DNA of 64,000 bases from Chitinophaga caeni (GTDB lineage: Bacteria > Bacteroidota > Bacteroidia > Chitinophagales > Chitinophagaceae). The stretch is from contig NZ_CP023777.1 in assembly GCF_002557795.1 (NCBI RefSeq), positions 806,001 through 870,000 of the forward strand. Reading direction: 5' to 3'. This document shows, in pieces, positions 57,806 to 61,151 of the stretch. The translations under genes and the position numbers were made by a program. Each line of letters opens with the position of its first letter. Positions within the stretch are counted from its first letter, which is position 1. The notes beneath the pieces were generated by a model, which searched no databases, was not told where the DNA came from, and saw only the letters and a list, made by a program, of their open reading frames with translations.

Positions 57806-58273
57806 CTATTCTACTACGTTAATAGTACGGGTGAAGCTTTCTTCGAGGGAGATGAAAGTTTCGGTGCGTTCGATTCCTTTGATTTTTTGCAATTCATCGT
57901 GTAATACGCGGCGGAGCTGTGTAATATCTTTACATATGATCTCGGCCCACATGCTATAACTACCGGTTGTATAATTGAGGCGAACAATTTCGGGGATCTT
58001 GCGCAAATCACGGGCAACCCCGTCATACAAGGAGCTTTTTTCCAGGTAAATGCCGATAAACGCGATTACATCGTAACCGATCATTTTCAGATCTACCTGT
58101 AATTTAGTTCCTTTAGCTATACCCAGTTCTTGCAGCTTCTTCATTCTAACGTGGATCGTACCCCCGGAAACAAATAGCTTCTTACCGAGATCAGCGTATG
58201 AAATTTCCGCATTGGTCATCATCTCGCTGATGATCTGTAAATCAAGTTTGTCAATATTCAAATTGTGGCTCAT
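57806..58273 (-). CDS. Lrp/AsnC family transcriptional regulator
   Basis: A 155-residue DNA-binding protein. The N-terminal winged helix is typical (LDLQIISEMMTNAEISYADL, then VSGGTIHVRMKKLQELGIAK) and the C-terminal ~75 residues are the ligand-binding RAM domain (VDLKMIGYDVIAFIGIYLEK; VRLNYTTGSYSMWAEIIC). Such regulators sense amino acids. Its gene ends 103 bp upstream of tryptophan dioxygenase on the same strand, suggesting control of tryptophan catabolism. Confidence 0.9.
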   Translation of the reverse strand: MSHNLNIDKLDLQIISEMMTNAEISYADLGKKLFVSGGTIHVRMKKLQELGIAKGTKLQVDLKMIGYDVIAFIGIYLEKSSLYDGVARDLRKIPEIVRLNYTTGSYSMWAEIICKDITQLRRVLHDELQKIKGIERTETFISLEESFTRTINVVE

Positions 58274-58356: not shown

Positions 58357-58388
58357 TTTGCAAGAAATAACCAATCTCTTTAGATTTG
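58357..58388 (+). promoter_or_regulatory. Consensus promoter of the giant-arm tRNA
   Basis: TTTG (58357-58360) and TAGATTTG (58381-58388) are separated by 20 bp, an exact match to the Bacteroidota pattern. Transcription would begin near 58394 and give a leader of about 68 nt before the mature tRNA 5' end. No plus-strand ORF follows before the tRNA, so this promoter belongs to it. Confidence 0.8.
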
Positions 58389-58461
58389 CATCAGATTCAT
58401 TGAAAAACGATAGTGATTTCAAAGCAATCATTTCTCACGCACAACGAATCATTATAAAAAT

Positions 58462-58607
58462 TGTGGGGTGATGAAATTGGCAGACATGCCCTCTTGTCTC
58501 GGGGGTGTGGAGCATAGGATAAACCTTCGCATAATGGGTTGACCACTAATCTTACTTGTGCCTGGGCTAACTACCACGTGGAGGTTCGACTCCTCCCCCT
58601 ACAGCCA
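58462..58607 (+). tRNA. tRNA with giant branched variable arm, anticodon GUC
   Basis: A 146-nt cloverleaf. Acceptor stem TGTGGGG/CCCTACA (58462-58468 with 58597-58603, one G-T pair), then discriminator G (58604) and encoded CCA (58605-58607). T8 G9, D stem ATG/CAT (58471-58473 with 58485-58487) with GG at 58479-58480. Anticodon stem CCCTC/GGGGG (58489-58493 with 58501-58505), loop TTGTCTC, anticodon GTC at 58496-58498. T arm GGAGG-TTCGACT-CCTCC (58580-58596). A15 (58476) and T48 (58579) fit a Levitt pair. The variable region is 58506-58579, about 74 nt, with stems 58507-58510/58574-58577, 58511-58513/58566-58568 and 58516-58518/58561-58563, and two inner hairpins. The D arm resembles tRNA-Leu. 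G73, GUC and C38 are Asp identity elements, but position 10 is A and position 37 is U, which is unusual. Identity is uncertain. Confidence 0.85.
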
Positions 58608-58615
58608 ATTTATCT

Positions 58616-58650
58616 AAAAGCCTGGGATTATAACATCCCAGGCTTTTTTT
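58616..58650 (+). terminator. Intrinsic terminator of the tRNA unit
   Basis: A perfect 13-bp stem (58616-58628 with 58635-58647), 6-nt loop and a T-run, starting 8 bp after the CCA end. It marks the tRNA as a monocistronic transcript. Confidence 0.9.
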
Positions 58651-60429: not shown

Positions 60430-60437
60430 TAATTTTG
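60430..60437 (+). promoter_or_regulatory. -7 element 6 bp before the trmB start
   Basis: TAATTTTG matches TAnnTTTG and ends 6 bp before the ATG at 60444, predicting a leaderless mRNA for the trmB operon. The -33 region has no TTTG at the right distance. Confidence 0.45.
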
Positions 60438-60443
60438 CGCCCC

Positions 60444-61151
60444 ATGGGACAAAAGAAATTGCAACGATTCGCTGAAATAGAAACGTTCCCCAACGTTTTG
60501 ATCTACCCTGAAAACATGAAAGGGCGATGGAAGGAACATTTTAAGAACGATCATCCGCTAACCCTGGAGTTGGCTTGCGGGAAAGGCGACTACACCCTTG
60601 GTTTAGCCAGGATGTTTCCCGATCGTAATTTTATGGGCGTGGACCTGAAGGGAAACCGCATCTGGAAAGGCGCCAAATCGGCCTTGGATGAAGGTTTGCA
60701 AAACGTGGCTTTCTTACGTACCCAGATCGACAAGCTCGATAATTATTTTAATCCCGGCGAAGTAGCCGAAATATGGATCACTTTTCCCGATCCGTTTTTA
60801 CGTAATTCCAAAGCCAAGAAACGTTTGACGCATCCGAAATTCCTGGGTATATATCAAAAAGTATTAATACCCGGTGCTACCGTAAATCTCAAAACGGATT
60901 CACCGGAATTGTATGAATTTACCAAGGAAGTAGTTTCCGTGGTAAATTGCCCTTTATTGGAAGATATTCCGGATGTATATGCCCAACCAGCAATTGAACC
61001 CATACTAGATATTAAAACTTTTTACGAAAGAATGCATCTTGCCGATGGCAGAACCATTCGTTTTCTTAAATTTACATTACCGGGTGAACCGATAGATTGG
61101 AAAAAAATCAGACTCAGCACCGATGAAAAAGAAACTGGAGGAGGGGATTGA
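60444..61151 (+). CDS. trmB: tRNA (guanine-N7)-methyltransferase TrmB
   Basis: SAM-dependent enzyme that methylates G46 in the variable loop of type I tRNAs. The 235-residue protein shows LELACGKGDYTLGLARMFPD (SAM site), VDLKGNRIWKGAKSALDEG and the catalytic region EIWITFPDPFLRNSKAKKR. The ATG at 60444 is used; an upstream TTG overlaps the predicted promoter box. It overlaps the DUF5522 gene by 29 bp and heads a compact run of small genes. Confidence 0.95.
   Translation: MGQKKLQRFAEIETFPNVLIYPENMKGRWKEHFKNDHPLTLELACGKGDYTLGLARMFPDRNFMGVDLKGNRIWKGAKSALDEGLQNVAFLRTQIDKLDNYFNPGEVAEIWITFPDPFLRNSKAKKRLTHPKFLGIYQKVLIPGATVNLKTDSPELYEFTKEVVSVVNCPLLEDIPDVYAQPAIEPILDIKTFYERMHLADGRTIRFLKFTLPGEPIDWKKIRLSTDEKETGGGD

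Follow-up and report, generated by a model that had tools for sequence, protein, structure and literature searches.

The window, the whole 64,000-nucleotide stretch of Chitinophaga caeni DNA analysed here, encodes a member of a real, widespread and covarying RNA family: a tRNA-like molecule with a giant variable arm, found in Bacteroidota and in viral contigs. We consider it probable that this RNA is a tRNA-derived carrier that does not decode, receiving aspartate from AspRS and having it converted to asparagine by GatCAB, in an asparagine-producing route controlled by AsnC. The first-pass annotation had proposed a tRNA with a tRNA-Leu-like body, aspartate-type identity marks and a special use, perhaps charged by SerRS; the first three points stand, and charging by SerRS is not supported. 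The U1-A72 pair, the asnC neighbour, the co-occurrence with GatCAB and the viral copies shift the likely function from an odd form of decoding to tRNA-dependent asparagine synthesis, and the carrier hypothesis accounts for the fixed bases, the neighbouring gene and the co-occurrence better than its rivals. We infer the steps of charging, amidation and release, as well as control by AsnC and what the arm does.

Structure and conserved bases of the RNA

The cloverleaf proposed for 58462-58607 was borne out, with acceptor (7-bp), D (3-bp), anticodon (5-bp) and T (5-bp) stems (Table 1), and the window sequence holds the GG/TTC elbow, A15 with U48, anticodon GUC and G73 that had been listed with it. 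In its D-T elbow cloverleaf and tRNA-type 3' end the RNA is built like a decoding tRNA. Its variable region is indeed 74 nt long, outside the size range of class I and class II, and whole homologous copies measure 115 to 195 nt. The encoded CCA described earlier is present at 58605-58607 but is not a family trait, as only 14 of 78 copies encode it; the constant 3' end across the family is G73-C74 rather than CCA. The 3' ends of the 39 distinct tRNAs called in the C. caeni genome are of the same type, with C74 encoded in 39/39 and CCA in 3/39.

Table 1 Features of the RNA gene and its surroundings (window coordinates)
Feature	Position	Strand	Basis
Promoter-like TTTG-N20-TAGATTTG	58357..58388	+	TAnnTTTG enrichment upstream of homologues
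asnC-like regulator gene, Lrp/AsnC family, 155 aa, divergent from RNA gene	57806..58273	-	NCBIfam, PDB
Giant-armed tRNA-like RNA, positions 1 to 76, CCA encoded	58462..58607	+	R1 model 149.3 bits at 58461-58605; homologues
Acceptor stem 5' strand UGUGGGG	58462..58468	+	U1, G2 fixed in 113/113 unique copies; 4-7 covary
D arm, 3-bp stem A10-U25, U11-A24, G12-C23	58471..58487	+	Both-side changes in 2/3 pairs
Anticodon stem-loop CCCUC-UUGUCUC-GGGGG	58489..58505	+	Loop base counts, 113 copies
Anticodon-like GUC, positions 34-36	58496..58498	+	Base counts, 113 copies
Variable-arm helix V1, 5' strand (partner 58574-58577)	58507..58510	+	Both-side changes in 3/4 pairs, 100% paired
Helix V2 5' strand (58515-58517) and GAUAAA (58518-58523)	58515..58523	+	V2: 98% paired, 3/3 pairs changed on both sides
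GAUAAA, conserved internal-loop strand	58518-58523	+	Alignment of homologues
Hypervariable arm hairpin with GGGUUGACCAC module at 58536-58546	58524..58566	+	Alignment; module common to viral copies
Internal-loop strand CUAA (58567-58570), V2 3' strand (58571-58573), V1 3' strand (58574-58577)	58567..58577	+	
T arm, loop UUCGACU	58580..58596	+	Five pairs, 100% paired
Acceptor 3' strand; C71, A72, G73, C74 fixed	58597..58605	+	113/113 each
Intrinsic terminator, 13-bp hairpin then T run	58616..58647	+	Fold z -5.8

To compare homologues, we took 78 copies (66 distinct) from 70 fetched loci and aligned 51 of them, dropping those more than 95% identical to a sequence of the same length. The 37 pairs tested comprise the cloverleaf and four arm helices and include -1 with 73 and 26 with 44, both of which lie outside the model. 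Paired cells made up 96.9% of this alignment, compared with 47-54% when partners were slid by 1-3 columns; 24 of the 37 pairs had changed on both sides, and none of 500 shuffles equalled any of the five measures. Within the acceptor stem, pairs 4-69 to 7-66 vary freely with compensation. The comparison also confirmed the helices of the variable arm, which had been described as multi-stemmed and consists of two helices of 4 and 3 bp separated by a 4-nt bulge, followed by an internal loop, usually GAYAAA/CUAA, and by a hairpin that varies widely in length. Folded singly, the RNA scored no better than its shuffles (z 0.21); the case for structure therefore rests on comparison. A covariance model and a search of relatives, suggested as a check in the annotation, recovered the family with compensatory changes in its stems.

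ARAGORN called no tRNA in the window, and no Rfam 15 family exceeded its gathering score there (best 22.2 bits with lax filters, against a gathering score of 55). An RF00005 search of the C. caeni genome returned 53 tRNA places, none of them the giant-armed RNA. Several other identities were discarded: an ordinary class II tRNA overlooked by software is incompatible with G73, the arm and the loop; tmRNA or a known Rfam family does not fit a window that lacks Rfam matches, RF00023 included, in a genome with a separate tmRNA (G000:C1:2970961); and the UAA-like motif, of which GACAAA variants occur, is not stable enough for the arm to hold stop codons or a hidden frame.

Base counts were taken over 113 distinct cellular copies from 83 sources. 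U1, G2, U8, G9, U35, C36, C38, C71, A72, G73 and C74 are invariant (113/113), and position 34 is G in 110 copies and C or U in the remaining 3. Aspartate identity depends mainly on G73, G34, U35, C36 and C38, the second pair being a minor determinant (PMC9976931); across the family all five are invariant or almost so, and the AspRS-type marks seen first in the window are thus a family property. Two further AspRS features differ, with A10 (49 of 51 aligned copies) where the AspRS set lists G10, and U1-A72 in place of G1-C72 in 113/113. U1-A72 is the pair recognised by bacterial GatCAB (PMC4206432 and PMC9976931). Among the 39 distinct tRNAs called in the C. caeni genome it is confined to tRNA-Asn and tRNA-Gln, and tRNA-Asp has G1-C72.

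The positions that flank these bases in the anticodon loop are of another kind. Position 37 is U in 102, C in 8 and G in 3 copies (a pyrimidine in 110/113, a purine in 3/113), and position 33 is U in 95, C in 9, A in 7 and G in 2. The features of the loop that AspRS recognises are thus conserved, and those required by the ribosome are not. The RNA, which departs from the combination of U33 and purine 37, does not look like a decoding tRNA, and the earlier argument for a special use over ordinary decoding, drawn from U37 in the window, gains from pyrimidine 37 in 110/113 copies and U33 in only 95/113.

As proposed, the body is tRNA-Leu-like, its D arm and core resembling the tRNA-Leu genes of the same genome. 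Class II tRNA-Leu has A73, the base wanted by LeuRS, whereas the RNA has G73 (113/113), a 74-nt arm, an aspartate-type loop and pyrimidine 37. It shares tRNA-like ends with tmRNA and differs from it by a full anticodon arm. Allo-tRNAs and tRNA-Sec are decoding molecules, mainly of serine and selenocysteine systems, with arms much shorter than that of the giant-armed RNA. They are like it in having an unusual cloverleaf with an enlarged arm (PMC7609411).

The annotation had also given the gene its own promoter and terminator. The terminator hairpin 3' of the RNA was confirmed. Upstream, the promoter-like element is present. The Bacteroidota promoter consensus TAnnTTTG occurs in the 120 nt before the RNA in 61 of 83 loci, compared with a mean of 7.9 and a maximum of 18 in shuffles, at distances from the RNA scattered between 8 and 100 nt, and a sigma-70 scan found no site.

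Distribution, asnC neighbour and co-occurrence with GatCAB

Of 148 related genomes, 103 contain the RNA by DNA query, among them the C. caeni genome itself and 78/78 of the same genus. These homologues, together with those in other families and the covariation, rule out chance or an assembly error. Genome hits of the R1 covariance model form two classes, at ~85-152 bits and ~50-68 bits; from their length, mostly ~86 nt, and the likeness of their bodies, the weaker hits are taken to be ordinary tRNA-Leu, one 78-nt hit of 67.8 bits (G442) falling outside that length. Searched with R1 (E <=1e-18), the order has the RNA in 181 of 298 genomes (80 of 136 genera) and the class in 52 of 296 genomes (38 of 165 genera); the RNA is also found in another class of the phylum (family f68). 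One genome scored as RNA-lacking, G218, holds a copy broken by a contig end, so the true numbers are slightly higher.

A pattern scan of named genomes yielded at least 120 stretches. The matches listed include Bacteroidota such as Chitinophagaceae, Saprospiraceae, Cyclobacterium, Algoriphagus, Dyadobacter and Spirosoma, and one record named Cellulophaga. PLSDB and INPHARED gave no match of plasmid or named-phage origin. Some genomes outside the genus carry tandem copies. L138 has four in tandem and L139 five. At L044 (700-1230), an intact copy is directly preceded by two 248-bp tandem repeats that contain approximately the first 23 nt of the RNA gene, which would fit an insertion or duplication point in its 5' part. 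We found no description of the family in the literature searched, which leaves out most subscription journals.

The product of the divergent gene beside the RNA scores 151 bits with the NCBIfam AsnC model NF008384 (below its 227-bit cut-off), 61.6 with ChrS and 49.9 with Lrp (NF008370), and its best PDB match is E. coli AsnC (2cg4, 110 bits; second match 66.9). Judged by these matches, the regulator is predicted to be AsnC-like rather than Lrp-like. In 56 of 82 loci, from two classes, an Lrp/AsnC-type gene was found, in all 56 upstream of the RNA and divergent from it with 121-218 bp between them; asnC is absent from the fetched flanks of the other 26. (The 82 loci represent 81 distinct places, L050 and L113 being one place, without asnC.) Broader clustering of frames gave an asnC-like gene in 73 of 107 loci, upstream and divergent in 72 and downstream in 1. 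The asnC and asnA genes of E. coli K-12 are likewise divergent, 151 bp apart, and E. coli AsnC regulates asnA. The divergent asnC is thus shared with that system, and here the RNA gene occupies the place of asnA.

An asnC-like gene at E 1e-25 or better was present in 14 of 26 chosen genomes, which comprised RNA-bearing and RNA-lacking ones; RNA-lacking genomes with an asnC-like gene include G090 and, at 39-41% identity, f25 genomes. At L492 (1968-2400), from G090, the asnC-like gene has ~70% identity and hairpin-like stretches can be seen by eye in the divergent region; asnA was considered as its neighbour there, and by eye no asnA-like frame was evident. In the C. caeni genome, AsnRS is encoded ~10 kb from the RNA gene (G000:C1:874742-875809). 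Downstream in the window lies trmB, the tRNA guanine-46 methyltransferase gene (60435-61151, +), and a homologous frame lies downstream in 29 of 107 loci.

From the aspartate identity, U1-A72 and asnC we predicted a link to GatCAB, and stated it before the genome test; as background to that prediction, some Cytophagales probably carry GatB. The sample consisted of 40 RNA-bearing and 40 RNA-lacking genomes, chosen by RNA status, completeness and spread, with GatCAB presence judged by GatB (GatB_N) alone. GatB was present in 40/40 RNA-bearing and 8/40 RNA-lacking genomes (Fisher 7e-15, uncorrected for kinship). The association held within families (21/21 vs 1/14 in f1; 6/6 vs 0/9 in f18), and in three genera of mixed state (G156/G280, G142/G252 and G106/G171) the RNA and GatB switch together (3/3). 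GlnRS exceeded its cut-off in 68 of the 80 genomes, and where it was present, GatB accompanied it in 35/35 RNA-bearing vs 1/33 RNA-lacking genomes, the exception being G273, which has GatB, GlnRS and no RNA hit. GlnRS was missing from 7 of the 8 RNA-lacking genomes with GatB, where GatCAB is therefore expected to serve Gln-tRNA, and from 5 RNA-bearing genomes, where GatCAB thus has another use. The C. caeni genome has one AspRS, one LysRS, one AsnRS, GlnRS and a full-length GatB; with AspRS, AsnRS and GlnRS all present, GatCAB is left without another evident client. The AspRS is bacterial-type, and at the putative discrimination site it has Phe, not His.

The AsnB orthologue (NF006949) was over its cut-off in 0/40 RNA-bearing, 10/40 RNA-lacking and 0/48 GatB-bearing genomes, a comparison of asparagine synthetases that covers AsnB only; some RNA-bearing genomes may have the ammonia-dependent AsnA. 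Among the RNA-lacking genomes, the match in G402, one of the 10, contains two stops, and G254, in addition to the 10, reaches 494.5 bits against a cut-off of 499. In the mixed genera, the orthologue is present in G280 and G252. Weaker AsnB-like paralogues (~150-250 bits) are common in RNA-bearing and RNA-lacking genomes, and some of those in RNA-bearing genomes could make asparagine; the C. caeni genome has none of them, its sole AsnB-like hit being at E 1.5e-8. Both the RNA and GatB are missing from 32 genomes. Of these, 21 are without the AsnB orthologue even if G254 is counted as having it, and these 21 must make or import asparagine otherwise.

A carrier model and its alternatives

A known form of tRNA-dependent asparagine synthesis uses tRNA-Asn as its carrier (PMC4206432, PMC8762117). 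In a survey of 547 genera in 2014, the combination of AsnRS, GlnRS and GatCAB without asparagine synthetase was recorded in 18, some of them Bacteroidetes, and a relaxed AspRS was proposed (PMC4206432). The route in Deinococcus radiodurans, Thermus thermophilus and Bdellovibrio likewise combines AsnRS, GlnRS and GatCAB with no AsnB orthologue and an RNA bearing U1-A72 as the proposed substrate of amidation; its carrier is tRNA-Asn, charged by a non-discriminating AspRS (PMC4206432), whereas here a separate RNA has the aspartate identity bases.

If the carrier model is correct, the RNA would be matured in the fashion of a tRNA, its CCA end being completed after G73-C74. Since the RNA has retained the main identity bases for aspartate, AspRS would load that amino acid onto it, and GatCAB would amidate the bound aspartate to asparagine, because the RNA has U1-A72, which tRNA-Asp of the same genome lacks. 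The asparagine would be released or handed on and then used through AsnRS. A separate carrier RNA would let an ordinary AspRS perform the first step. Reading of codons would be disfavoured by pyrimidine 37, the loose U33 and the large arm, as the model needs, because an Asn-bearing RNA with GUC would insert Asn at Asp codons. The product of the divergent asnC would sense asparagine and set the amount of carrier, a feedback like that of AsnC on asnA in E. coli, and the giant arm probably either holds an AspRS-GatCAB complex together or excludes the RNA from EF-Tu and the ribosome. Staphylococcal cell-wall tRNA-Gly is a non-proteinogenic charged tRNA, not destined for the ribosome. It offers a parallel in its non-ribosomal use and differs in amino acid and pathway and in having no giant arm. 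If the model is true, the RNA would be, to our knowledge, the first kept as a cofactor of amino-acid synthesis rather than for decoding, and it would give a different answer, for Bacteroidota, to the question of the missing asparagine synthetase noted in 2014.

Other readings of the same features have to be weighed against the carrier. The RNA might act as a regulatory decoy or sensor that binds AspRS, GatCAB or AsnC, tuning the supply of Asp/Asn-tRNA or the AsnC-controlled asparagine genes with no carrier role, as its linkage to asnC, its tRNA mimicry, the tandem copies of L138 and L139 and its large structured arm could suggest. We regard this as unlikely: a decoy does not require the absence of the AsnB orthologue, it leaves unexplained that GatB stands beside GlnRS only with the RNA (35/35 vs 1/33), and the tRNA-type 3' end suits a charged molecule. 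Somewhat harder still to accept is that GatCAB serves tRNA-Asn through a relaxed AspRS and that the RNA accompanies this state in some other way, for example as a chaperone of the complex. For Bdellovibrio this route has been demonstrated in vitro, and it has been considered possible for other genera with AsnRS, GlnRS and GatCAB and without asparagine synthetase, Bacteroidetes included (PMC4206432), yet it gives no reason why one RNA should combine U1-A72 with an anticodon loop of aspartate type.

Decoding in a specialised form, with Asp, or Asn after amidation, placed at GAY codons in a special context, strikes us as very improbable. The nearly fixed GUC and the many viral copies that lie near tRNA genes, some with tmRNA, speak for it, but position 37 is a pyrimidine in 110/113 copies and U33 is kept in 95/113, the C. 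caeni genome has two ordinary tRNA-Asp genes, and tRNA-Asp is also carried by 3 of 42 viral loci. Hardly credible is a long-armed tRNA charged by SerRS and placing Ser at Asp codons, which had been raised on account of G73 and the long arm: the SerRS determinant is C72 (PMC9976931), whereas the RNA has A72 in 113/113, and SerRS would not explain why U35, C36 and C38 are fixed.

Copies in viral contigs

If the carrier model is true, phages would have a reason to carry the RNA. We lean slightly towards a wider form of the model, in which the RNA is a dedicated cofactor for making a free amino acid and stands, in the place of asparagine synthetase, under the control of an asparagine sensor, phages spread it as an auxiliary metabolic RNA, and self-complementary arm ends may pair two copies.

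An exact pattern matched 75 stretches in IMG/VR contigs of up to 289 kb, and 86 viral loci fell into 23 groups by shared proteins; four proteins sampled from viral loci were a terminase, a portal protein, a DnaB-like helicase and an exonuclease. The 50 viral copies compared are invariant at G2, C71, A72 (50/50), G73 and C74, and all but one have U1 (49/50). The first search pattern for viruses included the anticodon loop; a scan with an arm pattern, whose matches were mostly due to chance, gave at least 11 true copies, and those taken from it have GUC in 11/11 and C38 in 10/11. Among 42 viral loci scanned, 24 have tRNA genes near the RNA, several of them as long arrays, 8 have tmRNA, and 3 (L331, L339 and L367) also hold an ordinary tRNA-Asp. 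A protein partner was sought in the viral loci and discarded, as the readable recurring clusters were phage genes or apparently spurious frames.

A palindrome of at least 6 letters follows GACCAC in 42 of 47 distinct viral arms (L293-L367), compared with a mean of 13.1 and a maximum of 23 in 300 shuffles, and the palindromes are of many different sequences. Cellular arms have one at chance level (18 of 90; mean 19.6). This pattern in the sequences suggests that the viral RNA may form dimers through its arm tips. Other large-armed, tRNA-Leu-shaped viral genes lie near the RNA at L312 (4342-4707 and 9979-10113, -) and L361 (3169-3299, +), scoring 30-53 bits with R1 and having no clear anticodon hairpin by eye, and in the viral loci L309, L300 and L458 the D loop is, by eye, enlarged by a hairpin or palindrome.
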